A DNA stretch of 37,597 nt from a virus, in IMG/VR virus record IMGVR_UViG_3300036846_000673, positions 1-37,597 of that record; one strand, written 5' to 3'. A program made the translations under genes and the position numbers. Positions 7,898-21,669 of this stretch are shown piece by piece; positions within the stretch are counted from its first letter, which is position 1; the number at the start of each line of letters is the position of its first letter. Under the pieces are notes generated by a model. It searched no databases. It had not been told where the DNA came from and saw only the letters and a program-made list of their open reading frames with translations.

Positions 7898-9301
7898 TCA
7901 CCCAGTCTCGTCTTGAAACTTTTCGAAGAGCCCGCGCAGTTCAAGCGCCGGGCCTTGGCTACCGTCCGACATGATCGGCGTTGCGAGATAGGCGTCGCGG
8001 TCGATCTTCCACCCGCTGAGCTTCGCGGCGCGCTCGCCCTGCGGTCCGCGGTCGCCCTGCGCTCCGCGCTCGCCGCGCACGCCCGCGATGCCGCGCTGGC
8101 CCTGCCGCGTGAGCAATTGCCAGCCCTCGCCCGGGCACGGTCCCGGATCGTTGCGGCGCGCGATAAAGCTGCCCCCGTTGAGCGCGACAATGTCTAACGC
8201 GAAATAAGCCGTGTCGGCCTCGAAGGTGCCGCGCGGAATCGGCGTCGCCGCATCGCGCCCGCCGACGGCGAGGCATGCCCATTCATCTGAGTTGCCGGGC
8301 GGACGCCCGGTGTCGCGCAAAGCCTGATAGGTGCCGCCGAGATGAGTCACCACATCGCCAACGTAATGCACCCCGTCTTTCCACGCCTGGGCGATCTTGA
8401 GCTTGCCAACCGGCCCCTCGGCGCCCCGCTCGCCCGGCAGACCGCGCTCGCCCGCCGGACCAGCCTTGCCGATCTCGCCGCGCTCGCCACGCTCGCCACG
8501 CTCTCCCCGCGCTCCTGGGATGCCGCCTTCGCCGCGCGGGCCGATCGGACCGATGTCGCCACGTTCGCCCGATGCACCGGGTGCCCCAGGCAGCCCCCGC
8601 TCGCCACGTTCGCCCGCCGATCCGACGGCACCGGCCTCGCCGCGCGGACCGGCCTCTCCCGTGGCTCCGGAGGCTCCCGGCGCGCCCGTTTCGCCGGGCG
8701 GCCCAGAGGCGCCCGTCGGCCCAATCTCGCCCGCTGGCCCGCGCTCACCCGCCGGGCCGGCCTCTCCTGCCGCGCCGCGCTCGCCGACGGCGCCCGGGTC
8801 GCCAGGACCGCCCGGCGGACCGACAGGTCCGCGCTCGCCGACTGGCCCCGCCGGACCGACGGCACCGGGCTCGCCCTGCATCCCGCGCTCGCCAACCGGA
8901 CCCTGCTTGCCGATAGGACCCTCATCGCCGCGCACGCCCGGAAGTCCACGCAAACCTTGCTGACCTTGCAGCCCCGTCTCGCCGCGCTCGCCGATCGGAC
9001 CGGCTTCGCCGCGCGCGCCCGCCGGGCCGTCCGGACCGCGCGGACCGTCGGCGCCGTTGCGCACCAACGCCAACCGCGATTCCGTCTTGGTCGTCACCAT
9101 CTCGCGCAGCGTCAGCATCTCGGCGCGCATCTCCGCGATCGCCGCGCGCGCCTGGGCCGTGATCAGTTCGCGATCGCGGGCAGCCTGCTCGCGCTCAGTC
9201 TCAAGCAGTTCGCCGAGCGCCTCGCGCCAAGCATCAACTAACGCGTCGGCGGCGGTACCGGGAGGCGGCTGCCATGATGTGCTTGAGTTCTCTTCTAACA
9301 T
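7898..9301 (-). CDS. Collagen-like repeat protein with carbohydrate-binding-like modules
   Basis: A 467-residue protein starting at the ATG at 9301 (MLEENSSTSWQPPPGTAADA). Residues about 25-75 are a helical, Glu/Ala/Arg-rich segment (LGELLETEREQAARDRELIT) that could trimerise as a coiled coil. Residues 80-310 are about 75 uninterrupted Gly-X-Y triplets, mostly GERG, GPAG, GEAG and GAPG. Then follow two aromatic modules, AWKDGVHYVGDVVTHLGGTY and DTAYFALDIVALNGGSFIAR, each with the W/Y...G....GG.....R pattern of type-3 chitin-binding-like (CBM5/12-like) modules, separated by a second short collagen block. The whole resembles a fibrous virion appendage that contacts glycans. It sits between portal and connector, and its start overlaps the portal C-terminus by 68 bases in a different frame. 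The frame stays open upstream of 9301, but there it encodes Arg-rich shadow sequence. Confidence 0.85.
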   Translation of the reverse strand: MLEENSSTSWQPPPGTAADALVDAWREALGELLETEREQAARDRELITAQARAAIAEMRAEMLTLREMVTTKTESRLALVRNGADGPRGPDGPAGARGEAGPIGERGETGLQGQQGLRGLPGVRGDEGPIGKQGPVGERGMQGEPGAVGPAGPVGERGPVGPPGGPGDPGAVGERGAAGEAGPAGERGPAGEIGPTGASGPPGETGAPGASGATGEAGPRGEAGAVGSAGERGERGLPGAPGASGERGDIGPIGPRGEGGIPGARGERGERGERGEIGKAGPAGERGLPGERGAEGPVGKLKIAQAWKDGVHYVGDVVTHLGGTYQALRDTGRPPGNSDEWACLAVGGRDAATPIPRGTFEADTAYFALDIVALNGGSFIARRNDPGPCPGEGWQLLTRQGQRGIAGVRGERGAQGDRGPQGERAAKLSGWKIDRDAYLATPIMSDGSQGPALELRGLFEKFQDETG

Positions 9302-10694
9302 CTTCGCTGGCCTGTTTGGTTGGTACGGGTTCCGCTGGTGGCTTTTCGCCGGGCGGTGGCTTTTCCCCGGGCTTAGGCGCTGGCGGCGCGCCCGGCGGCG
9401 CGCCCGGTCCAGGCGACGCTGGCGCTGGAATCCCGGCCGCAGCGGATAAGGGCACGACCTGTTGTTGGACGCGCGGCTCGTCACCAAATTTAACTTTGTC
9501 GAGACCTTCGAGCGCGCGGGCTTCGTTTGGTGCGTAGATTCCGCCCTGCACGCCGCGCGCCAGCGCCTCGATTCTTTCCTTCTGCGCCGACCGCAACAGC
9601 GCCGCGGTATCGAATTCGCAATATTCTTCGGGCTGGCCCTTGAGCGCGAACAACACGCCAAATGCTTCCTCGATGTGATTGAGCGCAAAGCCCAGGCCGG
9701 TCGCGATCCAGAACTGCATCAGGGCTTCGGTCGATCCGAATGTTGTTCCGCCGAGGCCGAGGATTTGCATCGGGATGCGGAAGGCAAGCGCGATATGCTC
9801 TTCGGATAGCTTCATCATCTCGGCCAGCTGGGCGTCCTTGCCGCCGACCGACCAGGGCTGAACCTTCAGGCCAGCTGTGAGGATCGGCGTTCCGCCAGCG
9901 TTCAATGATCGTGACATCTCATTCCACCGATCACGGAGGCTCTGAACCTGATCTTTATCGAGCACAAGGTCTGTTGTCAGCACCGCGCTCGGCCGCGCTT
10001 GGTTGTTGTAGAAGTTCAATTGTTGCTGGCTGATGGCTTCGCTGACGCCAATGTCGTTGAGCGCCGCCAGCAACGGCGACTGCCCCCAAAGCGGGAATGG
10101 ATAGCGCCGGGTTCGATCGGCGTGCAACTTGATATGCAGCACGTCACGTTGCGGACCTATCAGCGGCTTCTCGTCGAGCCGCCGCGCGATGACTTGATTA
10201 CCATACAGCCGGTAAAACACCTCACCGTCGACGGAAAGCTGCGGGCGCGACAAGTACGAATCCATCAAATGCAATTCGTTGATCTCGTAGCGGTCATTGC
10301 GCAGCGCGAGGGCGTAGGCGTTGCCCTCAAGATATAACAGCCGCGTCGCGTTCAGCAGAAAGTCGGAGATGGATTGATAGTTGTTTGGAACGCGCAGGAC
10401 GCGCGCCAGCGCTGAATTCTTGACGCGTTCGCGGCCACCCTTGTCGTTCGTTCGCCAGTGGCCGCCGGGACACATCGCAACTGTCTGGCTGTAGGCCGAG
10501 ACGCACGCTTCTACCAGGGCCGAGCTTGTCGACCAAGGCTGGACGTTATTGCCGGTCTGCCACCAGTTCGTCGGCGACCCGTCCGGCAGCCAGCCGCCAG
10601 AGTATGGCAGATAGTAGGGGCCGGGCCGAGGGGCGCCCTCGACCGCGCGCAGCACACTTTGCCACGCGCGTGCTACAAGATCGCGAGCGCCCAT
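9234..10694 (-). CDS. Portal protein (HK97 gp3-like)
   Basis: A 486-residue protein starting at the ATG at 10694 (MGARDLVARAWQSVLRAVEG). It carries the layout of HK97-type portal proteins: LVEACVSAYSQTVAMCPGGH, then NATRLLYLEGNAYALALRND, then DVLHIKLHADRTRRYPFPLW (the 'H.....d...G.SPL' region), and ISQQQLNFYNNQARPSAVLT. This is followed by the wing and the crown-like Pro-rich C-terminus. Dodecamers of the portal form the vertex through which TerL pumps DNA. The C-terminal 60 residues are a Pro/Gly/Lys tail (PGPGAPPGAPPAPKPGEKPP). The gene starts 7 bases after the 95-residue gene. Portal lies downstream of the capsid gene here, whereas the common HK97 order is portal-protease-capsid. Confidence 0.9.
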   Translation of the reverse strand: MGARDLVARAWQSVLRAVEGAPRPGPYYLPYSGGWLPDGSPTNWWQTGNNVQPWSTSSALVEACVSAYSQTVAMCPGGHWRTNDKGGRERVKNSALARVLRVPNNYQSISDFLLNATRLLYLEGNAYALALRNDRYEINELHLMDSYLSRPQLSVDGEVFYRLYGNQVIARRLDEKPLIGPQRDVLHIKLHADRTRRYPFPLWGQSPLLAALNDIGVSEAISQQQLNFYNNQARPSAVLTTDLVLDKDQVQSLRDRWNEMSRSLNAGGTPILTAGLKVQPWSVGGKDAQLAEMMKLSEEHIALAFRIPMQILGLGGTTFGSTEALMQFWIATGLGFALNHIEEAFGVLFALKGQPEEYCEFDTAALLRSAQKERIEALARGVQGGIYAPNEARALEGLDKVKFGDEPRVQQQVVPLSAAAGIPAPASPGPGAPPGAPPAPKPGEKPPPGEKPPAEPVPTKQASEDVRRELKHIMAAASRYRRRRVS

Positions 10695-10701
10695 TTCACA
10701 T

Positions 10702-10989
10702 TCAGCCTGTCTTCGCGGGAGTGGCTTGCCGCGTCTGGTATGCAGTGCCAGCGGCCGGTTTCTTGGCCTCCAGCGCCTTGTTCGCAAGCACGCCTGGATC
10801 GAGGTCCGATCCGTCCGGCTCATGCTCGGCAAAGTGCGCGCCGAGCACCGCCAAGTCATTTTCTTCTTGAGTTGGCGTTGGCTTGCCCTTCACCCGTTCG
10901 AGGAATTCCTGCTTGGACTTCTCGCTCACCTTGCGATCTTCAGCAAGCTGCTTCTTCGCAGCTTCGTTTTCGGGAGGTTGGTCAGCCAT
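10702..10989 (-). CDS. Small charged protein between capsid and portal, unknown function
   Basis: A 95-residue, highly charged, hydrophilic protein with no membrane segment. The first half is helical (ENEAAKKQLAEDRKVSEKSK, then QEFLERVKGKPTPTQEENDL). The second half contains AVLGAHFAEHEPDGSDLDPG and ends in a basic tail. I do not recognise a family. The location between the major capsid and portal genes suggests a scaffold-like or head-completion role, as short charged helical proteins are often found there. It has AGGAG 6 bases upstream of its ATG at 10989, so it is well set up for translation. Its stop is 7 bases ahead of the portal start. Confidence 0.6.
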   Translation of the reverse strand: MADQPPENEAAKKQLAEDRKVSEKSKQEFLERVKGKPTPTQEENDLAVLGAHFAEHEPDGSDLDPGVLANKALEAKKPAAGTAYQTRQATPAKTG

Positions 10990-11118: not shown

Positions 11119-14100
11119 TTAGCTCCAAGTTGTTGCTTGAGTCCAAGCAATCGTTCCAGCGCGACGCTGAACCCAATTGAGCGGCATCACCATTCTTAGG
11201 GCGATGCTATCTGTTTGGAACAGCGAACGTTGCGGAGCAGCAACAACACCAGGCGACCCAGGACCAACCAAATCAAGCGGGTTCGTGTCTTCCATATGGA
11301 GCGTCGCCTGATCGCTCAATTCCAGACGTGGTGCTTCTCCGCCAACAACAACAAAATCGGCAGCATCGATCAAGATCATCGTATGCGGCGCGACCGTCAC
11401 CGAGTCGATGATCGGAATGGTGTTGAGCGTCCCATTCCTGATCTCATCGCGGAACGGGAAGATACCAGTGTTGGGCGCGGACGCCAGCGATGCAGAAAGA
11501 ATATCGCCGGGGTTCAGGAGCCACGTCGGCTCACGCAGATTGCCGAACGTGCTGGCCACGAGCGCCTGGGTCACCAGCTTTATATCGCCGATGAGCGCCG
11601 GAAGTCCGCCGCCCGCAGTCGGCGTGAGTCCAGCAACACCATTCAACAAACCGGGCGGCCGGATCACGGTCGCCGGATTGGCATCAAGCAAAACGGTGTC
11701 GATCGCGACGGCCGTATCGATCTGCACCGCCTCGCGCAACAGACCTTCGATCGCAGGGATGCTGTGATCATTCATCTCACGGGTCCAAACTGAGATGACC
11801 GCGACCTTCTTAGGCGTGAGCGTCTGTGACGCGAATGCGCCCTGCCGCACGGGGATCGCCATGCCCTCACCAACAAACGAACCGGCGATGGTAGGAGTTC
11901 GCTGGCGCGTCGGGATGATGATGCGCCCGGCGTTCCCAAAGTTGAGCGTCAGTCCTCTGGCAGCTAGCCGCCGCAGGATCGCCTTCGGGTAGAGTAGGTC
12001 CATAAAATCAGTGTAGATTTGTTGGACCAGTTCCGCCGCCCATCCGGTGACGGTGGTCATGGCCGGTGCGGACGCTGCGCGAAGCACGATTTCGCAGATT
12101 CCCTTGGTCGGCTCGTCGTCGCCGTAGATGCGCTGCCGGATTTCATCGGCTTGCCGTCCCGTCGTCTTGACGAAGTACGCCACGACTCCGGCGCGAATGA
12201 TGTAGTCCAAAGAGCTTAGCTCTTCGGCTTTCTTGCGGGCCGGCGGCAGAACGATGTCCTTCTCGCGATCGCGCCGGGACGAGATCGCCAACGTCAGCGC
12301 GCGGCTGCGCGTGCCGCCATTGTCGCCGCTGCCGTTGTCGGCCGTGCGGCCGAGCGCCTTCTCGGAGTCTTTCAGCACCGCGTGCTGCTTCTCAAGTTGC
12401 AGGATCGTCGCGTTGAGATCACTGCTCGTCTGAACGTCGGCGTCACTCACGTTCGAGTCGTCGATCTTATCCAAGTGCGCTTGGAGGGCGTCGCGCTTTT
12501 CAAGCAACGCTGCCTCGATGTCCGTAATTCTTTGAGCGAGCGGCGTCATGGCCGTGCCCTTTCCTTTCGAAGATGTGTCGGCGTGCTTGCCAGTGAGCCC
12601 GCGCTGAATGACCGCGTCTTTTTTGCCGTGCTTGGCGAAGACGATGTCGAGTGTTTGCGGGGAAACCTTTAGCGATTTGGCGATGGCCAGTGCGTTCGCA
12701 TTCGCCGGCACCGCCACCAGCGATGTTTCGATGAGTTCTTGCCGAATGAAGCGCATGCCTGCCCAGGCGCCATCGTCTGACTTGCGCATTTCGCTTTGCA
12801 AGTCTCGGAAGCCGACGCTCACGGCCCGGAGTACGCCCGCCTCGATCAGCTTTCTGATCTCGTCGATGCGAGGTGACGTGCCTTCGGGCGCCAGTTTCAG
12901 CTGGCCGCGCAGGCTGCGATCTTCGACCCGCAGGTTCTTCCACGTGCCGATCGGGAATCCCGGGTTGTGGTTGAACAGGGCGATGGGATTTTTCTGGAAC
13001 GAAACTGTATCCCACCCGTCTTGTTGGATCACATCCCCCATCCGATCGATGCTCTCATCGGACAGGATAAAGTCCATGCCGTGCACTTCTTCCGCGTGCG
13101 TCTTGCGCCGGACTGCGGCCTTGGCCGCGCGATTCTCCCACGCCATTTGACAGGCTTCGAGCGCGTCGTCGTCGTCGACGCTGGCATCGTTGTCGGTGAC
13201 CTGATCAACGCAGCGGTCGAGAAAATCGTCCTGGCCCTCATCGTCGTCCGGATCGGGAATGTCGTCCGGATCAACTTGCTTGCCGGTGTGGTGCGCGTCC
13301 CTCCACATCGTCATACAAGCGGCGACGGCTTGCTCTTGCGGGCGCTCGGTGCCGCCGCCCTGGCCCATTAGATCGGGCACACAGCGGGCCATCCAGTCCT
13401 CTTGCGTCTCTTCTTTTCCTGGCTTGATCGGCATGGCGTTGCCTTTCTCTTCGTTGCTGTCATCGCCGCTCTTGGGCGCTTCGCTCGCCGGCTTCTTACC
13501 GGCGCCGCCCGTCCACTTCTCAGCTTCGGCGATCAGCTTGGTTATCGAGATATCGACGCGGGCGACCTTGACGCTCTTGTCGTCGTGCAGATTGTTGTCC
13601 TTGGCGTCGACGCCCAGCTGTCCGGCCCAGGTGTGATGCCCGTCCAGAATGTAGTCGTCCCGCGAGACGACCAGCCTTTTGTAGAAGCCTTCTTTCTTGA
13701 TGCGCTTCATTGCGGCGGCGACTTTTTCTCCGCTGATCTCGTTCTGGGTCGCGCGCAGGTTGGCCGCGTATTCCTTGTCCTTCTCGACCTTATAACCTTC
13801 GCCCTTCAGATACTTGATGAAGGCCTTTGTTTGCTTGGCCGGAATCACCGGCATTTCGACGCGGGGGATTCCCTTGCTCTCGGCGCAGAACAGGTTGGTG
13901 CCTTCGACCGAGACGTTGCACAGATTGAACACGGGCGGCGTCTTGCCCGACGCTTCCATCTTGGCAGCGGTCTTGCCCAAGAGCTTGATCAGCGTCGAGA
14001 CTTGCTTTGGTTGGTGTAGCTCGACCTTGCGATTCTCGAACAGCGCCCGTTGCGCGTCGTAAACGCTTGGCGTGTGGATGACGCCGTCCTTGACGTAGGC

Positions 14101-14472
14101 GTCCTTCGAGTAGCCCTCGCCCGGGTGCCCGTCGGAGCCGTTGCCGCCGCCGTCGCCACCGCCGTCGGTCCACTTGCCGCTCTCGTCCCGGGGCTCGTCG
14201 GAGACATCGTGGCCACCGCCCGCGCGCAAGGTCGCAAGTCTGGCCAACGTTTGCTGGACTTGCTGCCGCAGCACGGTCCAGGCGGTCGCCTTTTCCTCGG
14301 GCGGCGCTGGCGGCGCGGGCGGCTTGCCCTTATGCGCCGCGCGATGCTTGGCGCGGATCGCCTCGCGGCGCGGGTCGCCCTCAAAGCGCTGCACCGGGCT
14401 CAGCCAGTGCGGCGACTTATCGTCGACCTCCATCTGCAAGATGTCGATCGGTATCCGTTTCGGTTCGGTCAT
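11119..14472 (-). CDS. ParB-like / prohead protease / major capsid fusion protein
   Basis: A 1117-residue reading frame from an ATG at 14472 that overlaps the previous stop as ATGA; an ATG at 14535 is possible but less likely. Domains in order: residues 70-110 hold the shared head tag (QQVQQTLARL, then VSDEPRDESGKWTDGGG). Residues 120-330 hold a module with VSRDDYILDGHHTWAG, the ParB-like 'DG.HR...A' signature. Residues 345-445 are acidic, with two Cys-containing repeats. Residues 463-600 are an HK97-family prohead protease (S78): GMDFILSDESIDRMGDVIQQ, catalytic-type His in LFNHNPGF and Ser in AVSVGFRD. From 642 there is a coiled-coil scaffold-like delta domain, then the HK97-fold capsid (IPVRQGAF, LFQTDSIALRMVMPLNW). 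In-frame ATGs with AG-rich upstream sequence occur at 13434 and 12549, so separate protease and capsid products may also be translated. Maturation would cut the fusion. Confidence 0.8.
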   Translation of the reverse strand: MTEPKRIPIDILQMEVDDKSPHWLSPVQRFEGDPRREAIRAKHRAAHKGKPPAPPAPPEEKATAWTVLRQQVQQTLARLATLRAGGGHDVSDEPRDESGKWTDGGGDGGGNGSDGHPGEGYSKDAYVKDGVIHTPSVYDAQRALFENRKVELHQPKQVSTLIKLLGKTAAKMEASGKTPPVFNLCNVSVEGTNLFCAESKGIPRVEMPVIPAKQTKAFIKYLKGEGYKVEKDKEYAANLRATQNEISGEKVAAAMKRIKKEGFYKRLVVSRDDYILDGHHTWAGQLGVDAKDNNLHDDKSVKVARVDISITKLIAEAEKWTGGAGKKPASEAPKSGDDSNEEKGNAMPIKPGKEETQEDWMARCVPDLMGQGGGTERPQEQAVAACMTMWRDAHHTGKQVDPDDIPDPDDDEGQDDFLDRCVDQVTDNDASVDDDDALEACQMAWENRAAKAAVRRKTHAEEVHGMDFILSDESIDRMGDVIQQDGWDTVSFQKNPIALFNHNPGFPIGTWKNLRVEDRSLRGQLKLAPEGTSPRIDEIRKLIEAGVLRAVSVGFRDLQSEMRKSDDGAWAGMRFIRQELIETSLVAVPANANALAIAKSLKVSPQTLDIVFAKHGKKDAVIQRGLTGKHADTSSKGKGTAMTPLAQRITDIEAALLEKRDALQAHLDKIDDSNVSDADVQTSSDLNATILQLEKQHAVLKDSEKALGRTADNGSGDNGGTRSRALTLAISSRRDREKDIVLPPARKKAEELSSLDYIIRAGVVAYFVKTTGRQADEIRQRIYGDDEPTKGICEIVLRAASAPAMTTVTGWAAELVQQIYTDFMDLLYPKAILRRLAARGLTLNFGNAGRIIIPTRQRTPTIAGSFVGEGMAIPVRQGAFASQTLTPKKVAVISVWTREMNDHSIPAIEGLLREAVQIDTAVAIDTVLLDANPATVIRPPGLLNGVAGLTPTAGGGLPALIGDIKLVTQALVASTFGNLREPTWLLNPGDILSASLASAPNTGIFPFRDEIRNGTLNTIPIIDSVTVAPHTMILIDAADFVVVGGEAPRLELSDQATLHMEDTNPLDLVGPGSPGVVAAPQRSLFQTDSIALRMVMPLNWVQRRAGTIAWTQATTWS

Positions 14473-16247
14473 GCGGCCAACGGGACTTCTTCGAATTCCG
14501 GCGCCTGTTTCGCCCAGGCGTCCCATCCTTTCCACGCGGTGCCAGCCACTACGACCTCTTGCTCGCTGTGGACGTTGATGCCGTAGGCAGGCACCGAGAC
14601 GGCGGCCGTGCGGGGAACCTGGGCGCGCAGCACGACGCGGTTCTTGTCTGCGCCCCAGCCGTTGGCGATGCTAGGCGATACGCTGGTCGAGGCGGCGCCG
14701 TTGCGCACCACGTCGAGCGTCGGCAAATGCTGGTACTTGCCGACCGTGCGGAGCAGTTGCGCCTTCATGTGCGTCATCGCCGCGCTGAATGTTTCCGGCG
14801 TCAATTTGATGCCGCGATAGACATCGAGAGTCTTGATGCCCGCCTTGTCGAGCAGGTATTGCGTCGTCTCCCACTTGGCGCGGACGTATTCCTTGACGCC
14901 ATCATAGCCGCCGACGTTGGCCCAATTGTTGGCGCGAGCGATCAGTTCGGCGCGGTCGATGTCGGTCGATGTCTTGGCGTTGAGCCGTCCGCCCAACTCA
15001 TCAGCGATGGCAACTTGCAACATCTTGCCGCCGTTCGAGGTTGATGAACCCTTCCAATCGCTCCACAAACGATTGTCCATGTCCTTAACCGCTCGCGTCA
15101 ATTCCGGCGTCACTTCACCCTTGAGCACGTTCTTGGCGATCAGCTGGGCGGCGCGCTCGATTGATAGTTGGCGCGCGAGCGCCTGCGTTCGCCTGTAATC
15201 CTCGCCGCTGGTCGCATTGAGCGGATCGAAGGTCTTGGGAAGCGCGACGACTCTCCCCTGCTCGACCGGCGTCTCTTCATTGATCAGTTCGGTGTTGCTC
15301 TTGGTCCACTCGAACTTGCTCTTGTCGGACATGCCGTCGTTCCAGTCGCTTTCCATCATTTCGGTCGCGCTGTCCTCGAAATAGTCGGGCGCATCTAGGC
15401 TATCGCTCTTATGGTCGGACTCCTTGTCGAACGCCTTCTCGATCGCCTTGCTCAACCCGTCGCGCATATCCTCGGTCAGCTGCTCTTCCGGCTTGAGCGG
15501 CTCAATGCCCGGCAGCGTTCCTTGTTCCGGCGGCGGCAGATTGCTCGGCTCCTGCAACTTTTCGTCGTCGAAGTTCACTTCGAACTTGCCTCCGCCGTCG
15601 TACCCATCCTGATAGGTCATCGAGATCGCCGCCATCAGCTGATCTTTGGTGTATGGAATGCGGCCGTCGAACTCGGCGATGAAACCATCGATGGCATCCG
15701 CGGCCCAATCTGTTTCCTTGTTCTCGTTGAAATCGTGGACGACGATTGACTTTGCCTCATCGAGCGCTTGGCCGCTCTCATACCAATTCTGCTTCTCGTT
15801 ATCGATGTAGTTTGACAGGCTTTGCTCTTTGTAGGCTTCGAAGGCGGCCTCTTGGTCAGCTTCGCTGACTTGGTCCCATTCCTCTGGGACGAAATCGCCG
15901 TCCTCATCATCATCAACCGAGCCGCCGCCGATCGTATGGCCGACCGCGTCCGATGCCATCTTGTCCAGCGTCGGCTTCGCGGTCTGGTATTCGCGTTCCA
16001 GCCGTTGCGCGGTGGCCTTGTTCCATTCGTCGCCGCCGACCGAGATCACATGCGGGTCGAGCGCGGGCTCGGCCGCGGGCTTCTCGGCGCCGCCGCCACC
16101 ACCGTCGCCGCCGCCCTCGGTCCATTTGCCCGACTCGTCGCGCGGCTCGTCGGAAACGTCGTGGCCGGCGCCGCGCAAGGCAAGTCGGGCCAGCGTTTGC
16201 TGGACTTGCGACCGCACAACCGCCCAGGACTCCGCCGTTGCTGGCAT
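14469..16247 (-). CDS. Head-tagged protein with a C-terminal ADP-ribosyltransferase domain
   Basis: A 592-residue acidic protein. The N-terminus repeats the tag of the capsid fusion (RSQVQQTLARLA, then DVSDEPRDESGKWTEGGG), the two encoding regions being similar even at the DNA level. Residues 60-330 are an acidic helical region rich in Asp/Glu. The C-terminal 220 residues carry the arrangement of R-S-E-class mono-ADP-ribosyltransferases: Arg in LDVYRGIKL (about 478), Ser-Thr-Ser in GAASTSVSP (about 520), and Glu-Gln-Glu in HSEQEVVV (about 562-564). An E-x-E end is typical of arginine-modifying enzymes. Such enzymes transfer ADP-ribose from NAD to host proteins, and phages are known to carry them (T4 Alt is packaged in the head). 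Packaging here is inferred from the tag and the operon. The gene ends ATGA-coupled to the capsid fusion. Confidence 0.72.
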   Translation of the reverse strand: MPATAESWAVVRSQVQQTLARLALRGAGHDVSDEPRDESGKWTEGGGDGGGGGAEKPAAEPALDPHVISVGGDEWNKATAQRLEREYQTAKPTLDKMASDAVGHTIGGGSVDDDEDGDFVPEEWDQVSEADQEAAFEAYKEQSLSNYIDNEKQNWYESGQALDEAKSIVVHDFNENKETDWAADAIDGFIAEFDGRIPYTKDQLMAAISMTYQDGYDGGGKFEVNFDDEKLQEPSNLPPPEQGTLPGIEPLKPEEQLTEDMRDGLSKAIEKAFDKESDHKSDSLDAPDYFEDSATEMMESDWNDGMSDKSKFEWTKSNTELINEETPVEQGRVVALPKTFDPLNATSGEDYRRTQALARQLSIERAAQLIAKNVLKGEVTPELTRAVKDMDNRLWSDWKGSSTSNGGKMLQVAIADELGGRLNAKTSTDIDRAELIARANNWANVGGYDGVKEYVRAKWETTQYLLDKAGIKTLDVYRGIKLTPETFSAAMTHMKAQLLRTVGKYQHLPTLDVVRNGAASTSVSPSIANGWGADKNRVVLRAQVPRTAAVSVPAYGINVHSEQEVVVAGTAWKGWDAWAKQAPEFEEVPLAA

Positions 16248-16251
16248 CGGC

Positions 16252-16545
16252 CTACATGCAGATGAGCGTGAGGGTGCGATCGGCTTCCTGCTCTATCGGC
16301 GATTCGGCCGAGCCCGATCTGACGGCTACGTAGGTGGCTGCTTGCGTGACCGCCGAGTCGACCATGATCGCGCAGCCGGGCTTTATGGCACCGTTTATGT
16401 TGTCGTCAGAAATCATGAAGCTGACATTGGCAGGCGTCCAATCAATGGGCGCCAGAATCAACAAGACCGATCTGGCCGAGAGATCGCCGGAACTCGATAG
16501 AGATTCCCCGGCCGGGATCGTGAGGTGGAGCGTTAGCTTAGGCAT
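16252..16545 (-). CDS. Small beta-rich head-associated protein, putative decoration protein
   Basis: A 97-residue protein starting MPKLTLHLTIPAGESLSSSG. Alternating hydrophobic strands and the blocks APIDWTPANVSFMISDDN and ATYVAVRSGSAESPIEQEA resemble a widespread small phage protein type with an 'I.aG.slS....' start, an 'dWTpA.vsF.iS.DG' block and a final 'lRSG....p..Q.a.R' block. These appear beside capsid genes and are believed to sit on the head surface, but a specific function is not established. It overlaps the stop of the TPR-glycosyltransferase by 8 bases and ends 4 bases before the ADP-ribosyltransferase protein begins, so all three are likely co-translated. Confidence 0.55.
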   Translation of the reverse strand: MPKLTLHLTIPAGESLSSSGDLSARSVLLILAPIDWTPANVSFMISDDNINGAIKPGCAIMVDSAVTQAATYVAVRSGSAESPIEQEADRTLTLICM

Positions 16546-17737
16546 CGGATGCCTCCAGCTGTGCGAGCGCGCTGTCCCAGTCGCCCGCGATGGTCTGGCG
16601 GCGGACGGTCACGTTGTCGTACCAGGGCGCGAGCCAGCGCCAGCTGGCATAGTGGCTCAGCAGCGCGTCGACGCGCGGATGGCCGATCGCGCCGGCAAGA
16701 TGCAGCGCGGCCGTGTCCACCGTCACGATGCGATCCATGGCCAGCATCAGGGCGGCGCAGTCGGCGAAAGTCTTGAGTTCGTGGAATTGGACGTGGTGTT
16801 CTAGCGCTTCGAGGCCGCCCTGCTTTTGCACGCTATGCAAATTTGCATTACCGAGCGCGCCGACCAGCTGACCGAGCGGAATCGCGCGCTGATAATCTTC
16901 CGGGCGCTGCACCGACGCCGACCACGCGATGCCGACGTGCCGTCCGGGGCCGAGTTGCTCGCGCGCGCGCGCGACCGCGGATGGCTCGATGTGAAGGTAA
17001 GGCCTGCCGCTGACGGTGTCCGGGCTGACGGATAGCATGCCGACGACATGCAGGAGCGGGCAGACGAAATCGCAATCGTCCAGGCCGTCGATCACGGGCG
17101 CGAACTGCGCCGCGAGCGCGGTCAGTTCTTCCGGCACCATCAGAACGACCTCGGCGCCGAGCGACCGGAGCAGCGGCACATAGCGCAGCACCATAATGGC
17201 GTCGCCAAATCCGTGCGTGTGCATCAGCAACAGCCGCTTGCCGGAAATGTCCTCGCCGTTCCACACCTTCAGGCCCGCATCGATGGCGTCGGCGATCCGC
17301 TCCCGCCTGAACGGTGGCCGCATCTCACATGCGCGGTATTCATCGAAGCCTTCGCGCCAGCGGCCGAGCGCCAGCAGGATCATCGCACGGTTGAAGCGGG
17401 CATAGAGCGTTGGCGCCTGCGCGATGACGGCGTCTATTTCGAGCAGCGCTTCGGTGTTCAGATTCTCGCGCGTGAGCGCCAGCGCGCGGTTGAAGCGCGC
17501 CACATAATCGTCGATGCGCAGCTGCTCGCGGATCGAGCGCGTGTGACGGCTGGCGTTCTTGCCGCGCATGATGGTCAGATCACCGTCATCCGGCATCGCG
17601 GCCTTGTGGCCATTGCGGCTGCGCACTTCGAGGATTTCACCCTTCGCCGTCAGCGCACGCCAGCCGTATTCCGTTTCCTCCTGCGCGATGATCGCCTCAC
17701 CATCGGGCAGCGGCTCGACGAAAGTGGACTCCTTCAT
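16538..17737 (-). CDS. TPR repeat protein with a GT9-like glycosyltransferase domain
   Basis: A 399-residue protein starting at the ATG at 17737, which overlaps the stop of the capsid paralogue as ATGA. Residues 76-140 look like tetratricopeptide repeats (ARFNRALALTRENLNTEALL, then YARFNRAMILLALGRWREGF). Residues 160-399 match the GT-B type, heptosyltransferase-like domain often joined to TPRs in bacteria: GKRLLLMHTHGFGDAIMVLR, then VGIAWSASVQRPEDYQRAIP, then the C-terminal DRIVTVDTAALHLAGAIGHP and a Trp-rich WRWLAPWYD block. In that family the first block is the acceptor-side glycine loop and the second half binds the sugar nucleotide. The substrate is unknown. Position inside the head operon suggests glycosylation of capsid, tail or host surface glycan. 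The frame is open upstream but as shadow sequence. Confidence 0.75.
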   Translation of the reverse strand: MKESTFVEPLPDGEAIIAQEETEYGWRALTAKGEILEVRSRNGHKAAMPDDGDLTIMRGKNASRHTRSIREQLRIDDYVARFNRALALTRENLNTEALLEIDAVIAQAPTLYARFNRAMILLALGRWREGFDEYRACEMRPPFRRERIADAIDAGLKVWNGEDISGKRLLLMHTHGFGDAIMVLRYVPLLRSLGAEVVLMVPEELTALAAQFAPVIDGLDDCDFVCPLLHVVGMLSVSPDTVSGRPYLHIEPSAVARAREQLGPGRHVGIAWSASVQRPEDYQRAIPLGQLVGALGNANLHSVQKQGGLEALEHHVQFHELKTFADCAALMLAMDRIVTVDTAALHLAGAIGHPRVDALLSHYASWRWLAPWYDNVTVRRQTIAGDWDSALAQLEASDA

Positions 17738-19716
17738 TTCCAACTCGGCGTCGTCCACGCGACCGCGCGCGGATCGCGGATCGCCCATGACAGGGGCCAC
17801 CGCATTTTCAGCGCGACGGAATCGGTCTGGAACAGGCTGCGCGCGGGCGAGGCCGGTGCACCACCGTTCACGATCGGCAGAGGCGTATCGTTCATATGCA
17901 ATTCGGCCGCCGTCGAAGCCTCGATCTCGGGCTGCGGGCTGATGGCGGCCACCAGCGCCAGCGGTGCCACGCACATGAGGTCGTTGCCCATGGCGTTGCT
18001 TGCGAGCACCGCGACGTTGCCCGCCTGGAGCACGAACCGCATGACCATGGCGGCGATGCGCCCAGGCGAGCCGATGAGCACGAAGGGGCCGTTGCCGCCG
18101 ACGACCGAGACGGCGTTGATGAGCGTGGCGCAGTCCTCGAAGAATGCCTGGAACGCGTCGGGCGACGCGCTCGGAGGCGTCGTCGCGACGCCGCTGCGCA
18201 AGCCAGCTGGCTGGGCAGCCGTCGCCGCCGCGGAACCGAAGAGCGCCACGTCGAGCGCCGCCGAGGCTGCCCGCATGAGCGTGTCGCCGACCAACACTTC
18301 GGCGTTGGACGATTCGATCATCTCGCGGCTCAGCACGCCGATGGCGCCAAGTTTGTACGGCTGCATGAGCGCCGCCGTCGCCGCCAGCTGGCGCACTGGA
18401 ATCGGTGCGCCCTCGGCAACGAAGCCAGCGTTGGCGGCGCCCGCCACGAAGCCGGGCGCGCTGATCAGGCCGTTGCCGTCGAACATCAGGACGAGAGATT
18501 GCATGAGCAAACGCGCGCCCGCCGCCGATGGACCCATGCCCTCAAGCCCGTCATACACAACCTTGTGGGCAAGCTCGGCGGCCCATCCCGCGACGGTCGT
18601 CATGGCCGGTGCCGAAACCGAGCGGGTAAGCAGCTGCGCCAGCACCTTGTCTGATGGCCAGAGATTCCCAGCGACATCGAGCGCCGGGCGCCGCGTGGCG
18701 CTCGCGATGGCGCGCGCGGTGAGCAGGCGCAGGAACAGATTCCCGCCGGGCAACGGCGGCGGCTCGCGATCGCGGCGCGCTTCTGCGCGGGCGCGAAACG
18801 GCTCGACCAGAGCGTTCATGTGATTCGGCTCCCGTGTTAAAGTTTTCTCAGCTTGCATCCGCACCGCTGCCCAGGCCTTCGAGCGGGCGAGCTTTTCGAG
18901 CGCAGCCGTCTGCGCGGCCACGCCCGCGTCGTACGTCGCAATGCGCTCGCCATCGCCCGGCTTGTAGGCCGCCGCGTGTTCTGGGTCGTGGACCATAAAG
19001 ACAACGTCCGGCCGGCCGTTGTTATACAAGCCGTATCTTTCATAATCCCAGTCCGGCGGCGCGTATTCATCATTGAATGGAAGGCGCGCGACCGCGCGAA
19101 ATCCGTTCTCAGCGTAGAGCTTTGGTAGGACCGTATCGAACGCGTCGAGCTTATTGCCGCCAGCTTGGACCGCCATCGCCAGCGCCGAGTCCGCAAAGCG
19201 GCTGGCGCTGGAATCCGGATGTTTGAATACCGAAACGATGTCGCCATCGCTCTTGACCGAGACGCCGGCTTTGCCGTCCGGAGTCGTGAAGGTCCGCATA
19301 CCCGCGTAATCAGCGGCCGGATAGGTCGCCACGGCGGCGCCGAAATTGCCGGCCGTCTTCGCGGCCACTATCGCGTCGTGGAAACGCTGGCCGCCGCCAG
19401 CGGTCTGTTTCAGTTCGTGAAATGTAACTGGTGTGGAACGGGGTAACGCCGTGCGGCCGGCATCGTTTAGATCGTAGACGCCAGCTACATCCCGGCTTCC
19501 CTCAAGTCCCGTAGGGCTACGTCGATCGTAAGCTTGGGATGCTGTTCCAGAACTCCCTGGAGTAGCGCCCGATCCCACTCCGGAAGGTTTTTCGCCTCCG
19601 GATGGTTCGCGATCGCCGCCGCTATCTCCGCCGTCCGTCCATCTGCCTGCGTCATCTCGTGGCTCGTCTGGGTCAAATCCCCGGGCGTATATAGGCGCTC
19701 CGCTGCGGCCTGTCAC
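17734..19716 (-). CDS. Second capsid-like (HK97-fold) protein with N-terminal head tag and GNAT-like domain
   Basis: A 660-residue protein with a GTG start at 19716. Residues 14-30 are the shared tag (FDPDEPRDDAGRWTDGG), followed by a Gly/Ser/Pro linker. Residues 90-260 form a folded-looking domain that ends LPKLYAENGFRAVARLPFN, the 'LY...GF..VAR' element seen in GNAT N-acetyltransferase-like domains; this is a tentative assignment. Residues about 330-660 parallel the major capsid of the neighbouring fusion: SAPAMTTVAGWAAELAHKV, GFVAEGAPIPVRQL and the identical RSLFQTDS near the end, then the 'ALKM..PLsW' strand. The protein lacks the long coiled-coil delta domain and the protease. It is best read as a minor or decorating capsid paralogue. 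The stop overlaps the next ATG as ATGA. Confidence 0.75.
   Translation of the reverse strand: MTGRSGAPIYARGFDPDEPRDDAGRWTDGGDSGGDREPSGGEKPSGVGSGATPGSSGTASQAYDRRSPTGLEGSRDVAGVYDLNDAGRTALPRSTPVTFHELKQTAGGGQRFHDAIVAAKTAGNFGAAVATYPAADYAGMRTFTTPDGKAGVSVKSDGDIVSVFKHPDSSASRFADSALAMAVQAGGNKLDAFDTVLPKLYAENGFRAVARLPFNDEYAPPDWDYERYGLYNNGRPDVVFMVHDPEHAAAYKPGDGERIATYDAGVAAQTAALEKLARSKAWAAVRMQAEKTLTREPNHMNALVEPFRARAEARRDREPPPLPGGNLFLRLLTARAIASATRRPALDVAGNLWPSDKVLAQLLTRSVSAPAMTTVAGWAAELAHKVVYDGLEGMGPSAAGARLLMQSLVLMFDGNGLISAPGFVAGAANAGFVAEGAPIPVRQLAATAALMQPYKLGAIGVLSREMIESSNAEVLVGDTLMRAASAALDVALFGSAAATAAQPAGLRSGVATTPPSASPDAFQAFFEDCATLINAVSVVGGNGPFVLIGSPGRIAAMVMRFVLQAGNVAVLASNAMGNDLMCVAPLALVAAISPQPEIEASTAAELHMNDTPLPIVNGGAPASPARSLFQTDSVALKMRWPLSWAIRDPRAVAWTTPSWK
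19485..19676 (-). CDS. Possible overprinted small gene inside the capsid-paralogue linker
   Basis: A 63-residue frame from a TTG at 19676 (TQTSHEMTQADGRTAEIAAA) to a TAG at 19485, read in a different frame over the Gly/Ser/Pro linker of the larger gene. The predicted protein is helical with an ordered-looking end (LPEWDRALLQGVLEQHPKLT, then IDVALRDLREAGM). Third codon positions in this frame are visibly richer in G/C than in the larger frame over the same bases, which is the coding pattern elsewhere in the operon. However, the overlapping frame carries the conserved tag, so both cannot be freely optimised. It may be a dual-coding region, or the small frame may be the relic of an older gene. 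Confidence 0.3.
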   Translation of the reverse strand: MTQTSHEMTQADGRTAEIAAAIANHPEAKNLPEWDRALLQGVLEQHPKLTIDVALRDLREAGM

Positions 19717-19720
19717 GTTC

Positions 19721-19753
19721 TCAAAGTCCAGCCAACGTTGCGCCGAGGTTCAT
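19721..19753 (-). CDS. Possible 10-codon leader peptide ahead of the capsid paralogue
   Basis: The short frame MNLGATLAGL starts at an ATG at 19753 that has GGAGTCA a few bases upstream, the same ribosome-binding core used by many accessory genes of this window. Its stop is 4 bases before the GTG of the capsid-like gene, close enough for re-initiation. It could be a truncated gene or a translational coupling device. Confidence 0.3.
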   Translation of the reverse strand: MNLGATLAGL

Positions 19754-19790
19754 CGGGTTGACTCCATTCGTGGTGCGGCTAAGGTTTGAA

Positions 19791-19893
19791 CCGTCGGGGC
19801 CAGTATTTCCGTGAAGCCCACCAGGAGGGTGCCCCGATCGCGAGCCCGGCCAGTAAACCGGTGATATCCAACGGCAGCCTGCTGGGCTCGCAC
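19791..19893. repeat. Double-hairpin repeat, copy A1
   Basis: First of two adjacent copies in the gap between TerL and the capsid paralogue. It consists of two stem-loops: outer stem TCGGGG/CCCCGA (about 19794-19838) with loop core GTGAAGCCCA, then stem GCGAGCCCGG/CTGGGCTCGC (about 19840-19891) with loop core GTGATATCCA. The same plan recurs in four more copies in this window. Confidence 0.8.
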
Positions 19894-19897
19894 TAAC

Positions 19898-19997
19898 TCG
19901 GGGCCAGCGGTTCTTTGAAACCCATGATGAAGATGCCCCGATCGCGAGCCCGGCCAGTCCATCTGTGATACCCAGACCAAGGATGCCGGGCTCGCAC
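19898..19997. repeat. Double-hairpin repeat, copy A2
   Basis: Second copy directly after A1 and 5 bases from the TerL stop. Hairpin 1 is closed by TCGGGG/CCCCGA with TTGAAACCCA inside. Hairpin 2 is closed by GCGAGCCCGGC/GCCGGGCTCGC with an inner TCTG/CAGA stem around TGATACC. Located at the 3' end of terL on the transcribed strand, so it would be part of the late mRNA. Confidence 0.8.
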
Positions 19998-20001
19998 CTT
20001 C

Positions 20002-21669
20002 TCACGCGATCAACGTATCCAGATCGATCGGCTTGGCGGTTCGATCCCGCGCGCGAAGTCCGAGCATCATGGCGAGCGCGACCGCGCCGTCGATCCTGAA
20101 CCTCGCTTTGTCCTTGTCGATTTTCCGATTCCCGGCTGGGTCCATCGTGGCCACCGCATTTGCCAGATTCCAATTGAGAACGGGGCTGGAGGGGTGGATG
20201 ATCGTGCGCTCGGTGATGGCAAGTTCGAGCGCATCGATAGCAGGCCCCATATCCTTGTATCCCTGACCCCACGGCAAAATTCGCAAGCCATCTCCGCCTT
20301 TCTCCCCTTCTTTGTATGCTTGGAGTCCGATCCTATCAAACTCTCTCAGCAACTCATCGACGCGCCAGCGATCATAAGCGAGGCCGCGAATTTTCTGCAT
20401 CTGGCCAAGTTGCGCGATGAACGTCGCGATCACGGCCGGATCGATCGAGCGGCCTGGGGTGGTCATCAGATGACCGCTGGCGAGCCATTCCTGATAACGA
20501 TGGCTCCCGCTTCCGAAGTCGCGCACCGAATGTTCCGCCAACAGTTCGCGCGGCTTCCAAAAGAAAGCGCGGATGCGGGTCGGATCGTTGACGGTGCCCA
20601 TAACGAGCGCCGTGAGATCGACCACGCTTGAGAGATCGAGGCCCAGGTAAACCTCTTCGCCTTCCTCAATGCTGACCGAGCCAGCGCACGCCATCCATTC
20701 AGCACGAGAGATCAGCGACGCCGTCGGCGAGACTCGCTGATTGAGAAATAAGTTCCTGACCTTCGGCTCTTCGGCCGGCATGCGCTTGGCCTTGCGCACG
20801 GCGGTGACGAGGTCATCGCGGTCGCGCCACTTGCCGAGCGCAGGGTTGGCCTTCAACCACTGCGCCTCGTCTTCGAGATCGCATTCCTCGTCCGCGGCGT
20901 GCAGATGGCAGACGATCGCCGGATCGTTCTTCGAGAGGCCGTCATCGATGAGCTTGGACAGAATATGCTCTGGATCGTTCGACTGCGTGCTGATGACCAC
21001 GAAGAGTGGTTCGCTGCGCGCACCAAATGAAGTGTCCAGCACGTCGTAGAGATCGCGGCTCTTGGCCTGCGCCAACTCATCGTAGATCGCTACGCTCGGC
21101 AGATAGCCGTGCTTCGTTCCGGCTTCGGCCGAGACTGCGCGAAAGATCGAGCCCGTCGGGTGCGCAATCATGGTCTTGGTCGAGCCAATGATTTCGATCT
21201 GGGGTCGCAGGATCGGCTCGCGCTCGACGATCTGCTTCGCGAACTTGAAGATGATGGACGCCTGATCGCGATCGTTCGCGGCGCTGTAGATTTCCCCGTT
21301 CTGGATCGCCTCGGGGCCGATCAGATGCGCGAGCACGATGGCCGCGATGATCGCTGACTTGCCGTTCTTGCGCGCTACTGACAGGATCGCGCGGCGCACG
21401 ATGCGACGCTTGCCGCGATGAGGCTCGTAAATGTCGCGGATAAAGTCTTTTTCCCATTCGTCGAGAGTGAACAGGCGCCCTTCGCCGATGCCGCTCGGAA
21501 TCGTCAGCGCTTCGATAAACTTGATGACCTCGCGGGCGCGCTTGCGCCCGTATGCGGAGCGCTTAACCGCCGCCGAGGAGTCCCGTGAACTTGTTGGCCT
21601 TCGTGCTGGCGATAGGCCCGGTGGCAATTCGCGCTCTGGCGCTTGGGGTAAGTCCGAATTCGGTGGCAT
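20002..21669 (-). CDS. terL: Terminase large subunit (TerL)
   Basis: A 555-residue protein of the HK97/P27-associated Terminase_1 type. The ATPase half has the Walker A segment SVARKNGKSAII (about 97-108) and Walker B PSVAIYDELA (about 191-200), with VVISTQSNDPEHI following as the coupling motif region. The nuclease half shows the acidic clusters YLGLDLSSVVDLTAL, GLAYDRWRVDELL and RIDGAVALAMMLG. TerL docks on the portal, pumps DNA into the prohead and cuts the concatemer. The annotated ATG at 21669 overlaps TerS by 107 bases, which is long; the first 35 residues are low in family features, so translation might begin later at a non-ATG codon. The stop is followed by the double-hairpin repeats. 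Confidence 0.93.
   Translation of the reverse strand: MPPNSDLPQAPERELPPGLSPARRPTSSRDSSAAVKRSAYGRKRAREVIKFIEALTIPSGIGEGRLFTLDEWEKDFIRDIYEPHRGKRRIVRRAILSVARKNGKSAIIAAIVLAHLIGPEAIQNGEIYSAANDRDQASIIFKFAKQIVEREPILRPQIEIIGSTKTMIAHPTGSIFRAVSAEAGTKHGYLPSVAIYDELAQAKSRDLYDVLDTSFGARSEPLFVVISTQSNDPEHILSKLIDDGLSKNDPAIVCHLHAADEECDLEDEAQWLKANPALGKWRDRDDLVTAVRKAKRMPAEEPKVRNLFLNQRVSPTASLISRAEWMACAGSVSIEEGEEVYLGLDLSSVVDLTALVMGTVNDPTRIRAFFWKPRELLAEHSVRDFGSGSHRYQEWLASGHLMTTPGRSIDPAVIATFIAQLGQMQKIRGLAYDRWRVDELLREFDRIGLQAYKEGEKGGDGLRILPWGQGYKDMGPAIDALELAITERTIIHPSSPVLNWNLANAVATMDPAGNRKIDKDKARFRIDGAVALAMMLGLRARDRTAKPIDLDTLIA

Follow-up and report, generated by a model that had tools for sequence, protein, structure and literature searches.

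Tagged genes in the head operon

We analyzed the whole of an IMG/VR virus record (37.6 kb), further called the window. On its minus strand the genes from terminase to portal are ordered as follows: terminase, GNAT-like/capsid-paralogue, glycosyltransferase-like, small ORF, ART-like, ParB-like/protease/capsid and portal. Three genes inside this head and packaging block encode proteins carrying one short peptide, here called the tag (Table 1). As the initial annotation had claimed, the core DEPRD(E/D)xG(K/R)WT(D/E)GG lies near the N-terminus of each of the three proteins. A six-frame scan of the window identified exactly these three occurrences, all on the minus strand, and no fourth copy.

Table 1. 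Coordinates of the features discussed, in window positions.
Feature	Positions	Strand	Remarks
Collagen-repeat protein	7898-9688	-	near the portal, with a CBM_5_12-like stretch
Portal	9234-10859	-	
Fusion ORF	11119-14535	-	tag, ParB-like, S78 prohead protease, HK97-type capsid; omega 0.09-0.14 vs relatives
Major capsid domain	11125-12132	-	Phage_capsid, phrog_617
Prohead protease	12619-13107	-	Peptidase_S78
Internal start MPIKPGKEETQ	13402-13434	-	conserved ribosome-binding site AAGAGAAAGGC; ATG at aa 368
ParB-like (DdrB-like) module	13486-14139	-	DGHHTWAG at 13621-13644
Tag copy 1, DEPRDESGKWTDGG	14158-14199	-	fusion ORF, aa 113-126
Pre-tag segment of fusion ORF, AWTVLRQQVQQTLARL	14236-14283	-	
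Tagged ART-like protein	14469-16247	-	acidic module and C-terminal ART-like domain; omega about 0.2
ART-like domain	14478-15251	-	VYRG...GAASTS...EQE
Acidic module	15279-15935	-	between tag and ART-like domain
Tag copy 2, DEPRDESGKWTEGG	16110-16151	-	ART-like protein, aa 33-46
Pre-tag helix of ART-like protein, SWAVVRSQVQQTLARL	16182-16229	-	predicted helix 5-24, low confidence
Glycosyltransferase-9-like ORF	16538-17974	-	within the head operon
Tagged GNAT-like/capsid-paralogue protein	17734-19716	-	shorter capsid domain; omega 0.14-0.16
Segment resembling the pre-tag helix, AWAAVRMQAEKTLTR	18832-18876	-	from sequence; separates GNAT-like domain from capsid paralogue
Tag copy 3, DEPRDDAGRWTDGG	19627-19668	-	GNAT-like/capsid-paralogue protein, aa 17-30
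Stretch between terminase and GNAT/capsid gene	19721-20002		about 280 nt
Terminase large subunit	20002-21669	-	

Copies 1 and 2 were also alike upstream of the core (QVQQTLARL) and in their DNA. The repeats 14116-14220 / 16068-16172 and 14234-14293 / 16180-16239, about 165 nt in total, were 78% identical, in agreement with the DNA-level duplication that had been proposed. Copy 3 has the core peptide alone in common with the other two, and its codons differ. The tag of the ART-like protein was predicted to be disordered in the structure model. The sequence neighbouring the tags is of low complexity. Values of omega between 0.09 and 0.22 for the three tagged genes, capsid paralogue included, indicate purifying selection on all of them. 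In the closest relative (L105) all three are present in the same order, with approximately 87% nucleotide identity.

The ParB-like module of the fusion ORF matched phrog_8071 (E = 0.0015), which is in line with DdrB-like ParB proteins, and also a protein of phage F116; a tagged module elsewhere in the set matched ParB_N of Pfam at 5e-7. Protease-capsid polyproteins of the D3/PAJU2 type (phrog_617) align to fusion residues ~478-1137, and the matches stop short of the tag-ParB extension. The ParB-like/protease/capsid fusion of the initial annotation does exist as a tagged ORF, but its main protease-capsid product is probably untagged, the tag-ParB part being a read-through extension, as judged from the internal start. 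Both the internal ATG (13434) and the preceding AAGAGAAAGGC are conserved in L066 and L105. Further, the untagged protease-capsid ORF of L310, L312 and L313 starts at or near the methionine equivalent to aa 368 of the window. Therefore the tag is probably absent from most capsid chains. In L090 a gene of its own encodes the ParB module.

The ART-like domain contains the R - STS - ExE catalytic pattern (VYRG/GAASTS/EQE), which is kept in the 10 aligned relatives having the domain. It stands in register with tagged ADPrib_exo_Tox modules, at low probability (hhalign E 5e-4 global, 6e-3 local). No Pfam match and no PDB fold match were obtained for the ART-like protein, and the predicted model was poor in the ART-like region. 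From its sequence, the domain is likely an ADP-ribosyltransferase. The acidic module has a net charge of -44 over 255 aa, was predicted to be mostly helical and recurs beside other partners in many tagged ORFs. It could be a DNA-mimic or an assembly module.

In the third protein, the acetyl-CoA-binding motif (R/Q)xxGxG/A was not found in the GNAT-like domain (SSASRFADSALAMA in the window vs PKGIGAELIAEAI in L069). This KGIG-type motif is gone from the window and its two closest relatives and kept in L069; therefore this domain of the window protein may lack acetyltransferase activity. The predicted model of this protein was too poor to be used as fold evidence.

Recurrence of the tag and the modules beside it

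The wide motif search that the initial annotation had called for revealed that the tag recurs across many unrelated phages and that the three-gene set is one local instance. For this purpose we used a degenerate codon pattern encoding DEPRD(E/D)xG(K/R/Q/H)WT, further called strict. It was found in 104 viral stretches vs 6 stretches of bacterial and archaeal genomes (257 Gb). There were 137 strict tag instances in the viral collection, the window's own copies included, where a back-of-envelope estimate of the chance expectation is below 1. A sister form, DQPRDxxGRF (GRF form), was still more frequent, being present in at least 120 stretches, and the form E-x-HPRDxxGRF (HPRD form) in 48. The reversed DQPRDxxGRF, used as a control, was detected in 3 stretches, none of the 3 in a large ORF. 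These matches ruled out that the tag is peculiar to the present phage.

Positions left unspecified in the pattern were conserved as well: F/Y three residues before the first D, R/K preceding the W, and a run of glycines after it. Synonymous positions of the tag vary freely, so the constraint is on the peptide and selection acts at the protein level; a DNA-level site was ruled out on the same ground. The 16 residues preceding N-terminal tags had a mean net charge of +2.2, compared with -0.3 for random segments (p = 3e-11), and were mildly helix-prone. We rejected a pre-tag helix as an essential element, as it is present on part of the tags and the basic net charge is more general. Of 112 first tags, 45 lay no more than 75 aa from the ORF 5' end, and many tags were internal or repeated. 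The tag was not found in any solved structure.

Isolated phages queried with the tag segment of the window or with the DQPRD form gave no match. A W-type query gave weak matches in phages and plasmids, which were judged spurious without closer inspection. The HPRD form did match isolated phages and phage-like plasmids. In Streptomyces phage Gilgamesh (gp48) and Gordonia phage Sixama (gp73) it was located near the N-terminus of a very large protein encoded just 3' of the portal, and in PhiXhv-5 and a Helicobacter prophage it was located within the C-terminal part of the portal protein itself. The Gilgamesh match had an E value of 2e-3; the others, with E values of 2-10, were accepted by inspecting sequence and position. 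Among plasmids, most matches fell in Streptomyces elements of 125-133 kb; the single plasmid inspected encodes a phage portal upstream of its tagged protein. In L315, L318 and L320, which come from actinobacterial phages and a phage-like plasmid, a very large ORF directly 3' of the portal gene has the HPRD form, or a motif related to it, close to its N-terminus.

The core motif is also present in scaffold-like proteins (L151, L152, L145) whose genes lie beside the portal or major head gene or between the two; its context there differs slightly (DQPRDxxGRFA.K). The homologue of the tagged L151 scaffold in Pam1 is without the motif, which is thus dispensable there. DQPRDxxGRFA-type motifs near the N-terminus were seen in scaffold-like proteins of several apparently unrelated families (L151, L152, L145, L138, L222).

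We searched 93 modules after strict tags and 37 segments before them against Pfam. The structural domains beside strict tags were the S78 and XkdF proteases, MuF, capsid and four portal families. ADP-ribosyltransferase families were ADPrib_exo_Tox, ART, PARP, ART-PolyVal and Tpt1/KptA. Other effector toxins and enzymes included Zeta toxin, ATLF, Topo IB, histidine phosphatase, a 2H-type ligase and Acb1, and further effector domains were SAM lyase, GNAT, ParB_N and InPase. PHROGs matches added an Alt-like ART and a DNA methyltransferase. ORFs with the GRF form were similar: among the matches listed, ADPrib_exo_Tox was found in 13 of 104 and MuF in 7, together with portals, InPase, Zeta toxin and PBECR3; a minority of GRF-form matches fell in other kinds of protein, for example one tape-measure domain.

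The neighbours of tagged ORFs were mainly terminase, portal, major head and head protease genes. A tag occurring mainly in non-virion genes, the outcome named in the initial annotation as speaking against its proposal, was not observed: tagged ORFs mostly encode portal, MuF, protease or capsid domains or lie beside head genes.

To survey shuffling, we iterated HMMs seeded with the window domains over 121 tagged ORFs. The ParB module stands alone behind a tag in L090 and L038. It is followed by a second tag, the acidic module and ART in L081 and L098, and L069 has the order tag-GNAT-tag-ParB-acidic module. The architecture tag-GNAT-capsid paralogue is common to L047, L105 and the window, and tag-ParB-protease-capsid to L021, L066, L105 and the window. 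Another module takes the place of ParB in L009 and L070 (tag-other-protease-capsid). Repeated tags were seen in L027 (tag-ParB-tag-X-tag-Y-protease-capsid) and L040 (protease-tag-tag-tag), and one protein may have up to four. From these varied architectures, the tag marks a module boundary and the modules are interchangeable, which supports the earlier idea of a platform with different, swappable modules behind one tag.

Comparison with known head-delivered proteins

Short N-terminal loading sequences are known from two phages. In T4, a capsid-targeting sequence, a short N-terminal element, suffices for loading cargo into the head (PMC9026906). This element is N-terminal and is removed by gp21, whereas the tag is also internal and repeated. 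The two differ in sequence as well. T4 Alt is a packaged ADP-ribosyltransferase, to which we liken the ART-like protein of the window. In P1, the N-terminal 30 residues of DarB direct a reporter into the head, and DdrB, namesake of the ParB-like family, is present in the head (PMC9024508). That paper (PMC9024508) discusses a consensus among the Dar N-termini, and no tag-like motif is reported there.

Phage polyvalent proteins are multi-domain, encoded in head operons and predicted to be packaged and injected (Iyer et al. 2017, PMC5512222). They combine ART, GNAT, DdrB-like ParB, InPase, PBECR, MuF and portal domains, as tagged proteins do. Several unrelated effector domains in one protein were found in relatives of the window proteins (tag-GNAT-tag-ParB-acidic module, tag-ParB-tag-ART), while the tagged proteins of the window have one to three modules each. 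The head and packaging gene setting of polyvalent proteins was observed for the window genes and likewise for the neighbours of their relatives. The tagged set differs in that one motif marks the boundaries, also on single-module and scaffold-like proteins. In MuF polymorphic toxins, effector domains follow a head protein (Zhang 2012, PMC3482391; Jamet 2017, PMC5576092). Several tagged ORFs elsewhere have the order MuF-tag-effector; the three window proteins gave no Phage_Mu_F match and thus have no N-terminal MuF domain. Packaged phage ARTs were known before (PMC9503650).

By term search, the junction tag is undescribed in PMC5512222, PMC5576092, PMC3482391 and PMC9503650, and spellings of the motif were absent from the literature searched in the same way, subscription papers and supplements lying outside it. 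Head-delivered polyvalent effectors, MuF toxins and packaged ARTs are already known.

Possible roles of the tag and further features of the head operon

We propose that the tag is a portable docking or sorting label of tailed-phage head proteins and at the same time a module seam, and we assign this reading a probability of approximately 0.55. It begins with a lead-in that is basic and in many cases helical, and an aromatic residue, the acidic-PRDxxGR(W/F) core and a spacer rich in glycine follow. The tag would bring the attached module into the growing head via contact with an inner procapsid component, and would double as a seam where modules get added, duplicated or exchanged. The cargo in the window would be the ParB-like module, the acidic module with the ART-like domain, and the GNAT-like domain with the second capsid protein to which it is fused. 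Such cargo would become part of the head and, at least in part, leave it together with the DNA, as do T4 Alt and the P1 Dar proteins. The ParB module would be carried into the head by a minority of protease-capsid chains, those extended by read-through; most chains would start at the internal ATG. In some relatives ParB is a separate tagged protein.

Association with head proteins whatever the module, together with the core motif in scaffold-like proteins, argues for a head-linked function. The scaffold point is suggestive only, as the context differs and the Pam1 scaffold is without the motif. By analogy with the short N-terminal loading sequences of T4 and P1, the tag is most likely a docking or sorting element. 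We infer that the tagged proteins enter the head, dock there, are ejected and modify the host, and the tag may, as the initial annotation had it, direct proteins into the procapsid or anchor them in it. Several observations speak against a docking label. The same docking surface would have to be present in phages whose capsids and portals come from different families. Many tags lie inside a protein, or on the C-terminal side of a portal or MuF domain that would need no help to reach the head, which argues against a pure targeting label. The Pam1 scaffold and the few GRF-form matches in other kinds of protein count against it as well.

The initial annotation further suggested that the prohead protease may release the tagged proteins. 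The tag might be the recognition site of a maturation protease: modules would enter the head fused to structural proteins or led by a targeting helix, and cleavage would free them for ejection, as T4 gp21 trims internal proteins. N-terminal processing has precedents in T4 and P1, a portal or capsid fusion seems to need release before injection, and tags separate structural domains from effectors and successive effectors from one another (in L040 a protease is followed by three tags). We consider this unlikely. The S78 family was detected in 7 of 35 tagged records, where non-detection is not absence, since records may be fragments and other protease families are possible. This count weakens the tag as an S78 cleavage site in general, and so does the core motif of scaffold-like proteins encoded in portal-scaffold-capsid clusters; protease release is left unsupported. 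The conserved span of ~17 residues is long for such a site, and the six-frame scan revealed no second tag-like sequence where protease and capsid of the window polyprotein would have to separate.

The glycine-rich tail and the predicted disorder would also suit a passive flexible seam with no binding role, whose DNA aids recombinational swaps of modules, and both the DNA-level duplication of two copies and the module shuffling fit with it. We judge it improbable: the PRDxxGR(W/F) core is conserved across highly divergent phages while synonymous codons are free, and a linker has no need of fixed aromatic or PRD residues. Moreover, the core is conserved at sites where it joins nothing, ~30-40 residues in from the N-terminal end of large proteins. 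The low-complexity surroundings could even point to a coincidence of charged, glycine-rich disordered sequence. This is extremely improbable, given the scarcity of the reversed pattern and the strong concentration of the strict motif in viral contigs.

As for the docking or sorting label, a broader form of it is put forward tentatively, at somewhat below even odds: that (aromatic)xx(D/E)(Q/E/H)PRDxxGR(F/W) would be a shared head-address and assembly label across tailed phages of different bacterial phyla, borne by scaffolds, by the tails of portal and MuF proteins and by a wide range of injected effectors. If this is true, motif searches would reveal head-delivered effectors of unknown function. 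Head-delivered effectors are usually guessed from the gene neighbourhood, and a label in the sequence would allow many putative injected enzymes to be mined directly, uncharacterised modules included. It would also generalise how head cargo gets chosen outside T4 and P1. The role of the tag is simply testable in any culturable tagged phage.

Two other features of the head operon were observed. Besides the glycosyltransferase-9-like ORF of the window, three genes adjoining tagged ORFs in other records matched a glycosyltransferase family (phrog_8858). The stretch separating the terminase from the GNAT/capsid gene is missing in L105 and holds a 100-nt unit in two tandem copies, 76% identical, with short peptides.
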